64,000 nt of DNA from positions 34,084 to 98,083 of IMG/VR virus record IMGVR_UViG_3300046002_004036; one strand, given 5' to 3'. The DNA comes from a virus. The notes beneath the pieces were generated by a model. That model was not told the DNA's origin and did not search any database. It saw only the letters and a list, made by a program, of their open reading frames with translations. The position numbers were made by a program, and so were the translations under genes. Of the stretch, positions 1 to 63,245 are shown piece by piece. How positions within the stretch are numbered: position 1 is the stretch's first letter; the number at the start of each line of letters is the position of its first letter.

Positions 1-433
1 CAATCTTGGTTTTAAAACCTTTAAAGAAAACGTTCTTAGCCTGTTGAGCATTAATGGCAACGTTAATAATGTCAATAGCATCTCCTGCAGGCTTACCAAA
101 ATATCTAGCAGGATCCTTCAAGCATAATAGTTTATATACTATGTATGCACACGCTACAGTTGATGTAAAGTCTTTTCCAGATCCCTTGCCAAGTTGCAGA
201 ATTACTTCATTCTTTGTATATTTTTTATAGTAACGGTGGCCTTCTTCTGCACCCAAAAGATCAACAAGGTCTTCTTCTCTGTATATTTGGCTCATTGCTT
301 CAACTATGTCGTATTGAACATCTGAAAGTGGTGGCTGATTTAAATATGCTTCACCCTCAACAAATGTTTTAGCATCTACTGGAAGTTCTTCAAAGTTATT
401 ATTTTTTAGTGCCTCAAAAAAATCATTGAACAT
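1..433 (-). CDS. Terminase large subunit, N-terminal part (cut by window edge)
   Basis: This is the N-terminal 144 residues of the DNA-packaging motor ATPase; the C-terminal part and nuclease domain lie to the left of the window. A Walker A-like sequence LGKGSGKD is visible near residue 82, followed by an alpha/beta stretch typical of the terminase ATPase fold (YIVYKLL, then IDIINVAINAQQAKNVFFKGF). The start ATG at 431-433 overlaps the end of the upstream small-subunit-like gene by 11 bases, the usual small-then-large order. The family assignment comes from the motif and neighbour; the catalytic Glu and nuclease residues cannot be seen. Packaging genes sit at the far end of the replication block, not next to the portal. 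Confidence 0.85.
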   Translation of the reverse strand, partial: MFNDFFEALKNNNFEELPVDAKTFVEGEAYLNQPPLSDVQYDIVEAMSQIYREEDLVDLLGAEEGHRYYKKYTKNEVILQLGKGSGKDFTSTVACAYIVYKLLCLKDPARYFGKPAGDAIDIINVAINAQQAKNVFFKGFKTKI

Positions 434-959
434 TGTGGACAACGGTAATCACTTCCCCATCTTTTGCAACAGATGAAAGTCTGTACATAATTAGGTCTCT
501 AATGTCTGGATGAGTGGAAGCAATATCTCTAAGAATACCAACTAAAACTTCTTGTCTTTTTTCAATCTCAACTATTTCTTCTGCAAGTTCTTTGTTTTCA
601 AGAAGGCCTGCTTTTTGTAGCATATCAATTCTTGCTTTTTCAATATCAACAACTAGCTTAATTGCTTGTGTCTTTGCGCTAAGATTATTTACCATAGAGG
701 CTTCATCAATAACTTCATAAGACTTTGTAATTAATTTACTATAGTGAGCATCCATTGCGGCAAGTGCTTCCTTAGCACGAGCACGAATTGCATCATTAGC
801 GGAAGCCATGACTTTCCACTCATTTATAAGTTCTACAACACGAACTCTAGGAATTGCTAATTCTTTAGAAATTCTAGTTGGGTCAGTTCCTTTAAGATAC
901 TCTGAGACAACAGTATTTACCTGATCAAGATGTTTTACTAAATCTTCTTCAGTTGACAT
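423..959 (-). CDS. Terminase small subunit-like DNA-binding protein
   Basis: A 178-residue protein directly upstream of the large terminase subunit. The N-terminal 50 residues look like a helix-turn-helix (TRISKELAIPRVRVVELINEWK), followed by a long charged helical region (about residues 55-150) suited to oligomerisation. This layout matches small terminase subunits, which recognise the packaging site and form a ring on the large subunit. Its end overlaps the large-subunit start, so the two are probably translationally coupled. No close family is recognised by sequence, so the call depends on the fold pattern and position. Confidence 0.7.
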   Translation of the reverse strand: MSTEEDLVKHLDQVNTVVSEYLKGTDPTRISKELAIPRVRVVELINEWKVMASANDAIRARAKEALAAMDAHYSKLITKSYEVIDEASMVNNLSAKTQAIKLVVDIEKARIDMLQKAGLLENKELAEEIVEIEKRQEVLVGILRDIASTHPDIRDLIMYRLSSVAKDGEVITVVHNVQ

Positions 960-1200
960 ATTTTCCCTCTAGCCTGTTAATTTCATCCTTGATATAAAAT
1001 ATTGCCTTTTCAAGATCTTGAATTGTTTTTGATTCATCTTTAAGACCTGCTCGCCAGAGATACTTAAAAGCATTACCAATATTAAAATTGCGATGGCGAG
1101 TAATATCTATACATTCTACGCCTGAAGGATCTGTTGTGTAATGTTGTGGATGATTGACTTGATCAACTGTAATGTTTAAATTATTACTCAATTGGCTCAT
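949..1200 (-). CDS. DUF3310 family protein
   Basis: An 83-residue protein with the DUF3310 signature: VNHPQHY near the N terminus, then GVECIDI, NIGNAFKYLWRAG and a final helix LEKAIFYIKDEI. DUF3310 proteins are common in phages and are often annotated as nucleotide-kinase-like, but the biochemical role is not settled. It overlaps the terminase small-subunit gene by 11 bases, indicating one transcript. Confidence 0.85.
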   Translation of the reverse strand: MSQLSNNLNITVDQVNHPQHYTTDPSGVECIDITRHRNFNIGNAFKYLWRAGLKDESKTIQDLEKAIFYIKDEINRLEGKYVN

Positions 1201-1312
1201 CCTCTTCTAAATCAAATGCCTCTGGCAAAACTTTAAATATTGTAAGAATATAAGTTATTCCTACTGCTCCAGCAATACCAAGACCAATAATGGTTTTTTG
1301 TAACTTGTTCAT
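1184..1312 (-). CDS. Small single-span membrane protein, 42 aa
   Basis: A short gene between the DUF3310 gene and the small HTH gene, overlapping both by a few bases, which supports real translation. The product begins with a Lys-containing start (MNKLQKT), then one hydrophobic span of about 20 residues (IIGLGIAGAVGITYILTIF), and ends in an acidic tail (DLEEDEPIE). A tail-inserted inner-membrane peptide is likely; function unknown. Confidence 0.65.
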   Translation of the reverse strand: MNKLQKTIIGLGIAGAVGITYILTIFKVLPEAFDLEEDEPIE

Positions 1313-1464
1313 CGTTTTGACTTCCTTAATCCAAACTTAGCAAGATAAACGTAGATAGTTTCTACGCTTGCTCCACACTCTTTGGCAATTTCTTCTGGGG
1401 TTTTTTTATCCATAAGATACCTCTTACGCATAAAAACCTCTGATGTATATAGTTTAGCAGCCAT
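1309..1464 (-). CDS. Small helix-turn-helix protein, 51 aa
   Basis: The C-terminal part reads KTPEEIAKECGASVETIYVYLAKFGLRK, a classic sigma/resolvase-type helix-turn-helix. I place the start at the ATG at 1462-1464 (MAAKLYT), because the longer reading would run into the upstream gene ending at 1469 and has no sensible N terminus. Its stop overlaps the next start (ATGA). Probably a DNA-binding regulator or a nuclease-associated HTH; target unknown. Confidence 0.7.
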   Translation of the reverse strand: MAAKLYTSEVFMRKRYLMDKKTPEEIAKECGASVETIYVYLAKFGLRKSKR

Positions 1465-1468
1465 ATTA

Positions 1469-2113
1469 TTATTTGTCAACTTCCGTATTAATAACATCAT
1501 AGTTGTAGGCATTAGAGTCTTCAAGTATCCACTTATCGTAACTCTCAACATCCCATTTGTTTGTATTAATGAGTCTTTGTATTACTAGATCTTTCTTTGT
1601 TACAAATGATGGCTCCTTTAGCCTTACCCGATTATTTGGCTGTATTGCAAAATTTCCATCATCTCTTTGAATGACGTGACCACATTTATGCTGACCTGGA
1701 TTTTCAGAATACCCATCATCTAAAATGTTTGTTTCTGGGTTGTGCCAATCAAGTGTAAATAGGTATGTTCCAGGTACAGTTGTCTTAGATCTATCAAGAT
1801 AGGACATTCTCATGTTACTCAAGTTTTCAAACTTTGTAACTGAAACATATGGACTAAAAGAATTCCAAAGAACAAGATTATGAATTGGCTCTTCTGGTAC
1901 TCCTGGCTTAGTGCAAAAAGCATTAATTGGCATTCTCCACCAGATACCACCGTCTTCCATTAAAAAATGAAATAAGGGACTTCTACTTTTAATACTTGAT
2001 ACACCAAATATAACGCATGGAAAATATTGATCATGGCTATCTTCTTGGTCTCTTAAAAAATTACCACGGACGTAACACTCTATCGGTGGTATGTTTGCAT
2101 TTAACTCAGGCAT
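1469..2113 (-). CDS. Conserved-looking phage protein of unknown function, 214 aa
   Basis: Soluble protein rich in Trp, Asp and Asn (for example GGIWWRMPINAF and YLFTLDWHNPETN), with no signal peptide or membrane span. I recognise no domain. It lies directly downstream of the RuvC-like gene (shared boundary at 2113), so it belongs to the recombination/replication transcript. Confidence 0.6.
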   Translation of the reverse strand: MPELNANIPPIECYVRGNFLRDQEDSHDQYFPCVIFGVSSIKSRSPLFHFLMEDGGIWWRMPINAFCTKPGVPEEPIHNLVLWNSFSPYVSVTKFENLSNMRMSYLDRSKTTVPGTYLFTLDWHNPETNILDDGYSENPGQHKCGHVIQRDDGNFAIQPNNRVRLKEPSFVTKKDLVIQRLINTNKWDVESYDKWILEDSNAYNYDVINTEVDK

Positions 2114-2703
2114 TATTTATCAACTCCTATTGCTTTGTCCCAGTTTTTAATAGCCCAATGACCAATACCGCAAGCATCTGCAACATCATTGTCTGTAATT
2201 GTTCTATCATAAATAGTATTTATAAATTTAATTGTTCTTTGTTTTCGTAGTTCTCTTTCATGAGATTTATACCAAGAAACAGATTTGCCTGGATTTTGTG
2301 CACGGATCAAAAGCTGTTCTTCTTTAGAAATTTTTTTGTTTCCAATATAATTTTGCCATGTGATTGGGGACACCTTTCCAATAACTTTTGTTCCTGATTG
2401 ACCTGCTGCTCCTAAAATTGCCCCTTGAACTAAAGCAAGATCTGCAGCAGTCTTAGGACTGTTCATAAAAACAGTATGCTCAATTATAACTGCTTCAAAT
2501 CCATTATAAAAGTCAAGAAATGCTTTTACTTTTTTACCAGCATCCATTACTTTTTCGTATGTGTTATTTCCCTCAAAGTTAATTTTTCCAATTGCTCCAA
2601 GATTATCTTTAGTGTATAAGGCAAATGCAAGGCTGTTTGTGCTTGCATCAATTGCACATATTGTGTCTGGTTGTACTTGATACCCCCACTTATTCTTGCT
2701 CAT
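2113..2703 (-). CDS. RuvC-like Holliday junction resolvase
   Basis: A 196-residue RNase H-fold nuclease. Visible acidic residues match the RuvC set: IDAST with Asp19 on the first strand, VIIEH with Glu75 after a beta strand, and a C-terminal DNDVADACGIGHWA with two Asp, the usual D..D helix. Such enzymes cut four-way junctions, here probably debranching replicating phage DNA before packaging. I chose the ATG at 2701-2703 rather than the TTG two codons upstream. It overlaps the zinc-finger gene before it. Confidence 0.85.
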   Translation of the reverse strand: MSKNKWGYQVQPDTICAIDASTNSLAFALYTKDNLGAIGKINFEGNNTYEKVMDAGKKVKAFLDFYNGFEAVIIEHTVFMNSPKTAADLALVQGAILGAAGQSGTKVIGKVSPITWQNYIGNKKISKEEQLLIRAQNPGKSVSWYKSHERELRKQRTIKFINTIYDRTITDNDVADACGIGHWAIKNWDKAIGVDK

Positions 2704-2980
2704 AATCAAAAAATCCTTTTATTTGTTTTAACATTTTATCAACTTCTTTTTTGCTTATATTACAATTAGAACAAAATCCAGAGTCGTTATAGATTGAAAG
2801 ATCAACACCACAACCGCCCAAACATTTTCTAATTCTTCCAATTCTTTTTTGTCTGCGAGTAATCTGATAGCGTTCTGCTATTTTTTCTTTTGTAGCGTCG
2901 TCTCTACAAGATTCACTACAGTAAATCTGATAAGAAACTTTTGGTGTGAAATATAAGTCACATCTGCTACAAAGTTTCAC
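2690..2980 (-). CDS. Small zinc-finger protein, 96 aa
   Basis: Two cysteine clusters are seen: CSRCDLYF...YCSESC at the N terminus (resembling HNH-associated or MYM-type fingers) and CLGGCGVDLS...GFCSNC in the middle, separated by a basic helix (RRQKRIGRIRK). This looks like a two-site zinc-binding DNA or RNA adaptor. It overlaps both neighbours, the Cas4-like nuclease gene and the RuvC-like gene, so a recombination-linked role is plausible but not shown. Confidence 0.7.
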   Translation of the reverse strand: MKLCSRCDLYFTPKVSYQIYCSESCRDDATKEKIAERYQITRRQKRIGRIRKCLGGCGVDLSIYNDSGFCSNCNISKKEVDKMLKQIKGFFDYEQE

Positions 2981-3800
2981 TCAATTCCTCCAAAGAAGCT
3001 ATCTTAATTATTCCATCGCCAGCTTCTGCACAAGCTGCTTTTACTGGACATGTCTTACAAATCTTAGAATTTCCACGATAGTTTTTAGTAGGAAGTGTTT
3101 GATCTTCCCAAGCTTTACGAACTTCACGCATCCAATTAAATGCATAGTCAATCCATTGACGATAACCATCATTTACTTCTACAGGAATAATCATTAAGTC
3201 ATGGTTATTTTTGTTTTCATAAACAAGTGCGCCCTTTGATTTTCCAAGTATCTTCATATAAATAAGTAATTGAATAAGGTGTGCACCTTTTGGTTTATTT
3301 GTTTTCTTTCGGTATTCAAATGCTTCACTCATCATTGTCTTAATTTCACCAACAATTTCTTCGCCTTCCCAATTAAACATTACGTCACCGTAACCAAAAA
3401 TTGGTGGATCATTTGCAATAACCTTAAACTCTGTTGTTTTTTCACCTTTATCATTAATATATGGAACTGCAACTCCAGAGGACAACATTGCTCCTTGAAT
3501 TCTTTCATGCCCCATAGTTCCAGCACTCATGTTAGCAACGCCATAGGCATCTGTATAGTCATCAAACACATTACCATTAAATGCTAAGTACCAATAACGT
3601 GGACATTGCCCATGCTGGTATGCAATAGTAGATGGAGCAAATGTTTTCTTTGTTGTCATCTTTGGACCACGAGATACCGTGTATCCAGATCTAATCTTTG
3701 TAATCATGTCTTCAGCATTAAAGATTATATTCTGCCTTGTGATGGCTTCTTTCTTATCTGCCTCTTTTAGCATAACCTGCTTTAGTAAACTTTTTGTCAT
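2967..3800 (-). CDS. Cas4-like PD-(D/E)XK exonuclease
   Basis: A 277-residue RecB/Cas4-type nuclease. The catalytic core shows FGYGDVMF (the first Asp) and EEIVGEIKT (the E-x-K pair). Four cysteines are placed like the Cas4 iron-sulfur ligands: one near residue 66 in the YQHGQCPRYW segment and three near the C terminus in CKTCPVKAAC. Cas4-like exonucleases occur in many actinobacteriophages outside CRISPR loci and act in recombination together with RecA. No CRISPR array or cas1/cas2 is present here. It is preceded by its own extended -10 promoter. Confidence 0.85.
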   Translation of the reverse strand: MTKSLLKQVMLKEADKKEAITRQNIIFNAEDMITKIRSGYTVSRGPKMTTKKTFAPSTIAYQHGQCPRYWYLAFNGNVFDDYTDAYGVANMSAGTMGHERIQGAMLSSGVAVPYINDKGEKTTEFKVIANDPPIFGYGDVMFNWEGEEIVGEIKTMMSEAFEYRKKTNKPKGAHLIQLLIYMKILGKSKGALVYENKNNHDLMIIPVEVNDGYRQWIDYAFNWMREVRKAWEDQTLPTKNYRGNSKICKTCPVKAACAEAGDGIIKIASLEELSETL

Positions 3801-19809: not shown

Positions 19810-22800
19810 TTATTGTATCCTTTTAAGTCCCAGCCTTGTTTCAAGGCCTTGATTAAATGAGTGAGATACAGAATGAACAAAATATTTTTGCTGGCTTATA
19901 CCATTTAGAGAATAAGTAAGAGTAATTATGTCTCCAACTTGGATTAAAGGATTACCAAATATACTAAGGTTGGCATCTTTTGAAAAACCTTCAATTCCCA
20001 TTTGTACCAGCTTAAGCATTCTTTGTGCTGCTTGCTTTGACTGTATCCATTCTGAGTCTAGTTGTGCTACTTCTGAGCTATTAGATTGATCAATCAATAC
20101 CTCCAAAATTTCAGGGTCAGAAGGAGCAACAATTTCATGTGTCCAGAGATTTAAGTTAATTGTAAATTGATCAAGGTCATCTGCCTCTTTATGTAAAAAT
20201 ACCATGTTTGATGAATTATTAGCAATTACCATCTTTGCTCTAAATCCTGTGTTAATTGGGGTTGAGTAAGAAAGTGAATATTCATCAATTAACTTTTTTT
20301 GATAATTAGTCTGATCTTCTTTTTCATTTCCTGGAAAATAATACCACATATATTCAACTGGTAACACATCTACTGAAACTGCTGCAGGAGTTGTATATTG
20401 AACATCGTAATAGTTAATTCCAGCTACTTCAGGGCTTGTCTGCATTAAATAAGTAATTGAATTTGAGTATAGTGGTTGACCTTGGACTAAACCATTTAAA
20501 AATTCTCTATCTTGGTAAAAATAACTAACGCTTCTTTCTGTTAATGCTTTTTCTGTTGCATGAATTTCTCTAAGGGCGGCAGGAGAAACTCTTGTTCCCT
20601 GATCAAAATATTCAGGTTCTGGGTGTAGATCTGGAACCATTGTAGGATACATTGATGCATGAAAGCCAAACTTAGTTCCTGTTTGAATGTCATCATCAAA
20701 GTATGGTTTTTGTCTCATACCAGTTAAACCATTTACTTCAGTTGATTTCCAGCCAGAACCTCCAGGATTTGTTGTTACATCATAATCATCTGTTTTAGAT
20801 TCTTGCCATCCAACTATTTCTACGTTGTTTAAAAATATTGATAAAATTATTTTGTTGTTTCCTACGGTACCGCTTTCTCCATCTGAACCATCTGAAGAAG
20901 TTATTGCAACTTTTAAATTAAATGGGTTATCTGTTACATAAGAGTATTCATATTCTTTACCAACCAAAGTTTTTTTAATTATCTTTGAAAAATTATTTAC
21001 GATACTGTTACACTCTCCAGTAACCTCTGACCAAAACATTACACCAGTTGTTACATTTTTTGCTAATAATACATACTTGTATTTTGGTGGATCGTAAAGA
21101 TCTCCTGGTGATTTTGGATTTTCTTGGTTATACCTTACAAGCTCAATAAAATAAGCTTCTGCAGAAGATGTTGTACTTGCCATGTTAAAGAATAGACCAG
21201 CAGAAGCCACAGACTGATCTGGCATATCAAACTTTACAGAATAGGTGTGATAACCTATATCTGTTTCAGTTGTTGGATATATGAGAAGTTTATTATTTAT
21301 ACCAATATCATATATGGTTTCACTAACGTTTATTTTTGAAATGCTTGGCAAAGTACTTTCATTATCATTGTCATCTATTATTGATGTATATCCTGAAGAT
21401 GTTGCTAATGCAAGGGTTGAATCATTAAATCGTTTTTCAGAAAGACTCTTGCTGGCTAAAGTAGTAATTCTTGTATGTGCTGCTGGCACTGTTCCATATA
21501 GTCCACGCTGAACATTTGTAATATTTCCAGTAGGAGTTACTATAACTTCATAGTCAAACGGAACTGTTGCCTCTCCGCCAGAGACATAAGTGCCTGCTGC
21601 TGGATCAATAATTGAAAAAGAAGTATTTGTTCTGCTAGAAATAATTCCATTTATGTTATATGTTTTAGGATTAACTGCAGTGACAATCACTTTTTGTCCT
21701 ACCTTAAAAGTATTTGCTGCCGTATAAACTACTGCGCTTCCGCTTCTAGCAACATTTGTAACAGTTGCATAAGAAGTTTTTAGCCCAACATTATTTTGTT
21801 TAATAAAATTGTTTATTTCCGATTGAAGTTCCGTATCATTTTTTATTGAAACTGTAATTGGACTTTCTCCAAACTTTCCAATCTCATATTCTTTATAAAG
21901 AAATGAAACAATTTCATTTTCAATAAAAGCATAACCACTTGCATCACGATTAAAAGTATGAAAAATGTCTTGAAGATCATTAACATTTATGTTAAACATA
22001 TTTGAATTTTTTTCCATGTTGCTATTTATATAGTTAAACCCAACAGAGTCTATGCTTTGTTGCTGCCATACAACATCATTAGATGTTGCATAAACAAAAG
22101 ATGGAGAATTTTTAACCATTGGGTTTGTAACATTTTGTAAAGAAGGAGATTGTTTAACTTTAGGAATTTGATATCTTAAAGAAATTTTTCCTGGCTTTGC
22201 TTTATTAGAGATAGAAAATCCACCTTGTTTAATGTTAAAGTCTGAGACTGTTAGATTAGATGTGCTTGAAGATAAAATATTATGCAAACTTAAAAATTTC
22301 ATAATTCCATATTCATCAATATATGCTCCAATTTGATAAGCAACAAATATCTTATTAAGTGTGTCTACAATAGTTGAGTCTTTTGAGTTGCAGTAAAAGT
22401 ATGCTAGATCCATTGGATTAGCTTTATTGTTACAAACGTTGTAAAGAGAGTCATAGTCGTAATCTGTAAAACCAGCCAAATCAAGAATATTAGTGATTAC
22501 ATCAAATACGTTTTTTAAGTTAACTACATAATCAGGAACTGGGGTTGATTGGAGATATCTTGAGATATCAAAAGACTGAATAGAAACTGTATCTATATCT
22601 GATTCATCCCAAGAGTCTGAATAAAATACCCCTGCTGGAACATAGGCTGTTGTAGATGTTACGGTATTTGTAGATAAATCAGAGTACTCAAAAAGATTAA
22701 AATTAACATAAAACTTAATATTTTTTCTAAGAATACTTGAAAGCAATGTAGAGGCACTATCGCTTTGACTAGAAAAAACATTAACTATTTCATTATTATA

Positions 22801-60958: not shown

Positions 60959-60987
60959 ATACTACCATAGATACCCTGAAAAGTCAA
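60959..60987 (-). promoter_or_regulatory. Promoter TTGACT-17-TAGTAT for small minus-strand operon
   Basis: Minus-strand TTGACT (60982-60987), 17-base spacer, TAGTAT (60959-60964). Drives the genes from 60846. The GGCGTGTCG block sits directly upstream of its -35 box. The transcript leader 60847-60958 contains a GAGCCCTACT/AGTAGGCAAATAA hairpin related to the plus-strand leaders. Confidence 0.75.
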
Positions 60988-60989
60988 GG

Positions 60990-60999
60990 CGACACGCCG
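60990..60999. repeat. GGCGTGTCG block copy 1
   Basis: On the minus strand CGGCGTGTCG directly upstream of the TTGACT box. Related copies: 61200-61209, 61908-61917, 63039-63048 and 63086-63095. Confidence 0.65.
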
Positions 61000-61008
61000 T
61001 TGGCGTGG

Positions 61009-61024
61009 TGTGATTCTAGTCACA
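61009..61024. promoter_or_regulatory. Operator palindrome 1 (TGTGA-N6-TCACA)
   Basis: TGTGATTCTAGTCACA, a perfect TGTGA-N6-TCACA palindrome. It overlaps the stop codon of the 31-residue gene at 61016, upstream of the small minus-strand operon promoter. Confidence 0.7.
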
Positions 61025-61161: not shown

Positions 61162-61190
61162 AGTATAGCATAGAGATTGCTAAAAGTCAA
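61162..61190 (-). promoter_or_regulatory. Promoter TTGACT-17-TATACT, minus strand from origin region
   Basis: Minus-strand TTGACT at 61185-61190, spacer of 17, TATACT at 61162-61167, followed by TGCAGTATAAG. The same TATACTT-n3-GTATAA extension follows the plus-strand promoters at 61359 and 61943. Confidence 0.8.
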
Positions 61191-61199
61191 GTCCTGAGA

Positions 61200-61209
61200 C
61201 GGCGTGTCG
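61200..61209. repeat. GGCGTGTCG block copy 2
   Basis: CGGCGTGTCG, 10 bases from the minus promoter and adjacent to operator 2. Confidence 0.6.
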
Positions 61210-61211
61210 TG

Positions 61212-61227
61212 TGTGATATACACCACA
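61212..61227. promoter_or_regulatory. Operator palindrome 2 (TGTGA-N6-CCACA)
   Basis: TGTGATATACACCACA, one half-site mismatch from TGTGA-N6-TCACA, with TA in the middle as in GlxR sites. Next to GCCCGGC (61230-61236). Confidence 0.6.
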
Positions 61228-61238
61228 TGGCCCGGCAG

Positions 61239-61288
61239 TTATCCACATGATACACATCACACTAACAATTGAGCGTGAGTTATCCACA
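61239..61288. other. Two DnaA boxes, putative replication origin
   Basis: TTATCCACA occurs exactly at 61239-61247 and 61280-61288, in the same orientation, 41 bases apart, each followed by the same ATGA. This equals the consensus DnaA box. The stretch is non-coding (61112-61506 contains no protein gene), divergent transcripts start on both sides, and an AT-rich promoter region flanks it. Origin function is inferred. Confidence 0.7.
61246..61261. promoter_or_regulatory. Operator palindrome 3, overlapping DnaA box 1
   Basis: CATGATACACATCACA, half-site variant of TGTGA-N6-TCACA. Its first bases are the end of the DnaA box, so one protein could block the other. Confidence 0.55.
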
Positions 61289-61302
61289 TGATGTACCTCA
61301 CA
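61287..61302. promoter_or_regulatory. Operator palindrome 4, overlapping DnaA box 2
   Basis: CATGATGTACCTCACA, arranged relative to DnaA box 2 as operator 3 is to box 1 (both boxes are followed by ATGA). Confidence 0.55.
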
Positions 61303-61358
61303 TTGTAAAATGTCCATATTGACCTACTTACTGGGTAGTAGATGTCAGACCCCCCTGT

Positions 61359-61376
61359 TATACTTACAGTATAAGA
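61359..61376 (+). promoter_or_regulatory. -10 box TATACT with TATACTTACAGTATAAG extension
   Basis: TATACT at 61359-61364 begins a TATACTTACAGTATAAG sequence, the same as at 61162 (minus) and 61943. No convincing -35 at 17 bases, so it may depend on an activator at operator 4. Confidence 0.55.
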
Positions 61377-61882: not shown

Positions 61883-61898
61883 CGTGATGCATATCACA
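61883..61898. promoter_or_regulatory. Operator palindrome 5 (CGTGA-N6-TCACA)
   Basis: CGTGATGCATATCACA, one mismatch from consensus; followed after 9 bases by CGGCGTGTCG and the promoter at 61920. Confidence 0.65.
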
Positions 61899-61907
61899 TA
61901 AAATATA

Positions 61908-61917
61908 CGGCGTGTCG
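61908..61917. repeat. GGCGTGTCG block copy 3
   Basis: CGGCGTGTCG immediately upstream of the TTGACT -35 box, as for the minus-strand promoter at 60982. Confidence 0.65.
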
Positions 61918-61919
61918 TC

Positions 61920-61948
61920 TTGACTTTTTGATATTTCTATGTTATACT
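61920..61948 (+). promoter_or_regulatory. Promoter TTGACT-17-TATACT
   Basis: TTGACT 61920-61925, 17-base spacer, TATACT 61943-61948, then CTCGTATAAAG. The clearest sigma70-type promoter in the right arm. Drives the leader at 61992. Confidence 0.82.
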
Positions 61949-61991: not shown

Positions 61992-62039
61992 ATGAGCCTA
62001 GCGAATAAGCCTCTACCAGAGGATGAGCCTAGCAAATAA
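61992..62039 (+). CDS. Leader peptide frame with GAGCCTAGCAAATAA repeats, set 2
   Basis: ATG at 61992 opens a 15-residue frame (MSLANKPLPEDEPSK) with repeats GAGCCTAGCGAATAA and GAGCCTAGCAAATAA at each end. Another ATG at 62023 reads MSLANK. It resembles set 1 at 61411 (LSLANNPKGEPSK). It may be a real leader peptide or an RNA motif that reads as one. Confidence 0.5.
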   Translation: MSLANKPLPEDEPSK

Positions 62040-62054
62040 GTGACCAATATCACA
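62039..62054. promoter_or_regulatory. Operator palindrome 6 (AGTGA-N6-TCACA)
   Basis: AGTGACCAATATCACA, one mismatch, starting at the end of the leader-peptide frame. Confidence 0.6.
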
Positions 62055-62087: not shown

Positions 62088-62108
62088 CAATATGTCAGTG
62101 GTCTATGT

Positions 62109-62126
62109 TAGACTTACAGTATAAAC
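62109..62126 (+). promoter_or_regulatory. -10 box TAGACT with TAGACTTACAGTATAAA extension
   Basis: TAGACT at 62109-62114 followed by TACAGTATAAAC, sharing the extension of the other early promoters. No good -35; GTCAAT at 62086-62091 is the only candidate. Confidence 0.5.
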
Positions 62127-63050: not shown

Positions 63051-63066
63051 TGTGATAAGAAACACA
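63051..63066. promoter_or_regulatory. Operator palindrome 7 (TGTGA-N6-ACACA)
   Basis: TGTGATAAGAAACACA, one mismatch; followed by TAAATAATT, as operator 5 is followed by TAAAATATA. Confidence 0.55.
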
Positions 63067-63085: not shown

Positions 63086-63126
63086 CGGCGTGTTGATTTG
63101 ATTTCCTGGGATTTATGTGGTAAGAT
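63086..63126 (+). promoter_or_regulatory. GGCGTGTTG block and promoter TTGATT-17-TAAGAT
   Basis: CGGCGTGTTG at 63086-63095, then TTGATT 63098-63103, spacer of 17, TAAGAT 63121-63126, and ATCTTATACAATT downstream. Copy 5 of the block. Produces a short leader before operator 8. Confidence 0.7.
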
Positions 63127-63159: not shown

Positions 63160-63175
63160 TGTGACTAACCTCACA
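63160..63175. promoter_or_regulatory. Operator palindrome 8 (TGTGA-N6-TCACA)
   Basis: TGTGACTAACCTCACA, a perfect consensus match, between two promoters. Confidence 0.7.
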
Positions 63176-63216: not shown

Positions 63217-63245
63217 TTGATTTCTAGCCCTAAAAATGCTAAAAT
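63217..63245 (+). promoter_or_regulatory. Promoter TTGATT-17-TAAAAT
   Basis: TTGATT 63217-63222, 17-base spacer, TAAAAT 63240-63245, then AGTAATATAAACAAAAAG. Drives the genes from 63280. Confidence 0.72.

Follow-up and report, generated by a model that had tools for sequence, protein, structure and literature searches.

Replication origins that combine iterons with DnaA boxes exist in plasmids such as F or P1. In bacteriophage lambda, the promoter pR and ori-lambda are both stimulated by host DnaA (PMC8203912, PMC3985674). In Corynebacterium glutamicum, the regulator GlxR recognises TGTGANNTANNTCACA and is mostly an activator (PMC4254451). The locus described here lies at 61.2 kb of the window, a stretch of 64,000 nucleotides comprising bases 34084–98083 of a 98,083-bp IMG/VR phage record. 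It resembles lambda pR and ori-lambda in that host DnaA is predicted, from the sequence, to act as a transcription factor on a phage promoter and origin region via DnaA boxes; in contrast to lambda, each box here is joined to a CRP-like site that lies upstream of the promoter. To our knowledge, lambda has no composite of a DnaA box and a CRP site. The site consensus TGTGANNTANNTCACA is common to this locus and to the GlxR-activated promoters of Corynebacterium. Compared with the CRP/GlxR-activated promoters of Actinobacteria, however, the promoters are those of a phage, a DnaA box takes the place of the left half-site at the composites, and the regulator is putative. The presence of DnaA boxes in a non-coding region also recalls the F/P1-type origins.

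The surroundings of the boxes contain no convincing ORF; the sole overlap is with a 45-aa minus-strand ORF (61180–61317). Small genes run leftward on one side of the box region and rightward on the other, with promoter-like sites on both sides, in agreement with the earlier note, which had described a non-coding region with divergent promoters. The rest of the record, outside the window, was examined as L001 and L002, and the relatives used for comparison are metagenomic contigs throughout. The central features, in window coordinates, are as follows.

61239..61247, plus strand: putative DnaA box 1, TTATCCACA, exact match; position kept in relatives
61239..61261, plus strand: composite 1, putative DnaA box and degenerate CRP/GlxR-like site (CATGATACACATCACA, 61246–61261) with 2 bp in common
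61269..61276, plus strand: TTGAGCGT element between the composites; all 58 paired loci have its core, and the element occurs in both orientations among relatives
61280..61288, plus strand: putative DnaA box 2, TTATCCACA, exact match; kept in relatives
61280..61302, plus strand: composite 2, putative DnaA box and degenerate CRP/GlxR-like site (CATGATGTACCTCACA, 61287–61302) with 2 bp in common
61309..61315, plus strand: AATGTCC element between composite 2 and the promoter; position conserved in relatives

The earlier note reported two copies of TTATCCACA in one orientation, 41 bases apart, and exact matching bears this out: the window contains these two copies only (61239 and 61280, plus strand, 41 nt start to start). 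Two exact copies per window were also obtained in 22 of 100 shuffles, so that the count by itself is not significant; the significance of the pair lies in its conservation, spacing and placement. Each box was said to be followed by ATGA, but the following bases are TGA, the A being the last base of the box itself. The observation that each box runs into a half-palindrome stands, since its last two bases are common to a 16-bp site resembling TGTGA-N6-TCACA. The left half of this site is degenerate (CATGA), with TGA retained and the outer TG gone, while the central TA is retained in 97% and 94% in composites. The two 25-bp repeats, AGTTATCCACATGATACACATCACA and AGTTATCCACATGATGTACCTCACA, are 88% identical. 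The assignment of TTATCCACA as the DnaA-box consensus is likewise upheld: the match is exact, the copies are not randomly spread over the record, and they are conserved in relatives. The pair thus very probably consists of true DnaA boxes, each interlocked with a regulator site, within a region of divergent promoters.

At least 120 viral-contig stretches contain the exact composite, TTATCCACA-TGA-N6-TCACA, most of them in a common flanking context. Among the matches listed, 95 loci are distinct and come with 800 bp of surrounding sequence; 58 of these 95 carry a composite pair, 41 or 42 nt apart. A scan of GTDB species genomes for the composite gave 20 matches scattered over unrelated taxa, which we estimate to be near the chance level. 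The composite appears to be widespread in freshwater actinobacterial phages, with the box pair conserved in many. Variants of box 1 in relatives include TTATGCACA and TTATACACA, at some loci the place of the composite is taken by DnaA boxes in inverted or tandem order, and boxes adjoin CRP-like sites at two or three separate promoters per genome. One relative, L228 (G007 1–3500), has two composite pairs about 1.1 kb apart. Upstream of the promoters that have full CRP-like sites, one box or more is present in 103 cases and two or more in 48 (mean for permuted words, 0.18). When promoters were fetched by their −10 region alone, 16 of the 79 new to the set had an exact TTATCCACA upstream (permuted words, mean 0.16). 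The boxes are in this way tied to promoters, as in a DnaA-regulated phage promoter of the lambda pR type. A blastn search of the module against annotated phages gave no match, and papers dealing with GlxR in phages or with actinophage DnaA boxes offered nothing specific.

The composites belong to a larger series of predicted sites and promoters in the window.

60959..60987, minus strand: second leftward promoter, TTGACT-N17-TAGTAT
61009..61024, minus strand: CRP/GlxR-like site TGTGACTAGAATCACA, zero mismatches, 52.5 bp upstream of the −10
61162..61190, minus strand: leftward promoter closest to the composites, TTGACT-N17-TATACT
61199..61209, minus strand: CGACACGCCGT element between CRP-like site and −35; further exact copies at 60990–61000 (plus) and 61907–61917 (minus)
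61212..61227, minus strand: CRP/GlxR-like site TGTGGTGTATATCACA, centre 52.5 bp upstream of the leftward −10
61343..61364, plus strand: rightward promoter TGTCAG...TG-T-TATACT, extended −10 without −35; this promoter class recurs in relatives
61883..61898, plus strand: CRP/GlxR-like site CGTGATGCATATCACA, 52.5 bp upstream of the −10
61920..61948, plus strand: rightward promoter TTGACT-N17-TATACT
62039..62054, plus strand: CRP/GlxR-like site AGTGACCAATATCACA, 62.5 bp upstream of the −10 at 62109
62093..62114, plus strand: rightward promoter TGTCAG...TG-T-TAGACT
63051..63066, plus strand: CRP/GlxR-like site TGTGATAAGAAACACA, 62.5 bp upstream of the extended −10 at 63121
63160..63175, plus strand: CRP/GlxR-like site TGTGACTAACCTCACA, zero mismatches, 72.5 bp upstream of the extended −10 at 63240

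The sites that had been read as operators match TGTGA-N6-TCACA, the actinobacterial GlxR/Crp consensus, and conform to TGTGANNTANNTCACA, the GlxR consensus of Corynebacterium glutamicum. Every CRP-like site in the window is paired with a single extended −10, except the outer composite, which is 105.5 bp away. The distances from site centre to −10 are 52.5 bp (three times), 62.5 bp (twice), 72.5 bp and, for composite 2, 64.5 bp. In relatives, clustered at 60% identity beforehand, 36 of the 72 full-site clusters of promoters share one 10-bp phase (p about 1e-17). Sites are thus in helical phase with the promoter, as at CRP/GlxR-activated promoters, both in the window and among 74 promoter clusters. 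A background for CRP-like sites taken from portal loci was set aside because these loci are homologous. The 10-bp phasing points to activator sites at which a regulator would touch RNA polymerase. It speaks against repressor operators, a reading that was dropped. The comb of positions (−64.5, −74.5 and −84.5 if the −10 starts at −12) lies about 3 bp off the E. coli class I positions, and this offset counts against the reading as CRP-type activator sites.

Three further sequence features were noted at these promoters. CGACACGCCGT occurs at three of them (window 60990, 61199 and 61907), between CRP-like site and −35. TGTCAGACCCCCC stands where a −35 would be, before the extended −10, at window 61343 and in relatives, and is a common promoter signature in these phages. 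Repeats of TGAGCCTAGCAAATAA at window 61412, 61437, 61993 and 62024 lie in the leaders downstream of two promoters; in relatives they also adjoin CRP-like sites, and they possibly represent a leader peptide or a protein site.

No match to the DnaA C-terminal domain was found in 22 phage records and none to a Crp-type HTH in 21, and no phage O-like initiator was identified here. Because the phage records encode no recognisable DnaA or Crp, both DnaA and the CRP-type protein would be those of the host. WhiB is encoded in 15 of 22 records and the phage DNA polymerase is 53% identical to that of Streptomyces phages, which together point to actinobacterial hosts; we infer such a host for this phage. 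The minus-strand gene at L002:4888-5883 (331 aa) matches a PHROG named phosphate transporter subunit and is possibly an auxiliary metabolic gene.

We consider it probable that the region is a control region for divergent small-gene operons, governed by host DnaA and a CRP-type protein, and that it is not the main origin. It would sit between two divergent small-gene operons of a large actinobacterial phage, presumably expressed early. Every promoter would have a CRP/GlxR-type activator site approximately 52–73 bp upstream of its −10, in 10-bp steps, and the promoter at 61343 would have two such sites, 41 bp apart and fused to DnaA boxes. Host DnaA on the boxes, with a host CRP/GlxR-type protein alongside, would then determine the output of the 61343 promoter and perhaps of the leftward one too, thereby tying phage gene expression to host replication and cAMP state. 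From the arrangement of the sites we infer binding by both proteins and net activation. The earlier note envisaged competition at the composites; since the sites, being in helical phase with the promoters, have the appearance of activator sites, cooperation is as possible, and the left half-site, with its TGA kept and outer TG lost, would fit either.

Second to promoter control ranks the reading, rather unlikely in our judgement, that the phage initiates replication at the composites, either as its sole origin or as one of two. DnaA on the paired boxes would then help to open the DNA, and the neighbouring promoter would activate the origin by its transcription, as happens at lambda ori. The consensus boxes do lie within a non-coding strand-switch region, and in most long records the composite is found at one place only, which is what an origin would also give and which counts against the promoter reading. 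Several composite-bearing records, possibly fragments, have no second box cluster. The cumulative GC-skew minimum, at record 91.9 kb, is near the strand switch, but skew tracks the coding strand and so does not separate the two candidate sites. A search for further DnaA boxes over the whole record, which the earlier note had proposed, gave seven exact copies that are not randomly spread: the window pair, four at record 3497–3593 and one at 21127. Record 2812–3620, outside the window, holds the four boxes within 97 bp together with 17 GGTTTG repeats (0.8 expected). Relatives repeat this arrangement, with boxes 12 nt apart, a ATATTTTTTAGAT stretch and AGTGGAG repeats, and those with such a cluster also carry the composite. 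Compared with the F/P1-type origins, window 61.2 kb is without iterons or an AT-rich opening element: it has two exact boxes instead of a cluster of at least three, the composites are its sole close direct repeats, and its core has an AT content of 55%, compared with 63% in the genome. Boxes also occur at several promoters per genome. The proposal of a main origin at window 61.2 kb is thus not sustained, and the cluster of iterons and DnaA boxes at record 2812–3620 is likely to be the main origin of this phage.

The reading of the boxes as sites for DnaA remains the best. It is improbable that the 9-mers are sites of another protein, of phage or host, that shares the DnaA word, and that the locus is a two-protein promoter element without DnaA. 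In favour of this, many small genes of the phage have no assignment, and several further conserved elements here are without a known factor; however, the word agrees exactly with the DnaA consensus, TTATGCACA and TTATACACA are among its natural variants, and the boxes are arranged in tandem, inverted or singly at different promoters. It is very unlikely that the boxes serve as a decoy array, titrating host DnaA so that host initiation is blocked when phage copies build up: seven exact boxes in each genome, times the number of phage copies, could hold a large amount of DnaA, but titration does not need box positions that are fixed relative to CRP-like sites and promoters.

Returning to promoter control by DnaA and a CRP-type protein, we suggest, tentatively, that a widespread group of freshwater actinobacterial phages may have evolved a composite that puts a host DnaA box in the place of one half of a CRP/GlxR site, whereby a single promoter would sense both the level of the host's replication initiator and its cAMP state. 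If this is true, these phages would place a key promoter under two master regulators of the host simultaneously, and this would offer a model, open to testing, of the way in which infection is adjusted to the growth state of the host. The origin call for this phage would be corrected, and the composite pair, the phased CRP-like promoters and the iteron cluster would serve as signatures by which control regions and origins could be found in many genomes of uncultured phages.
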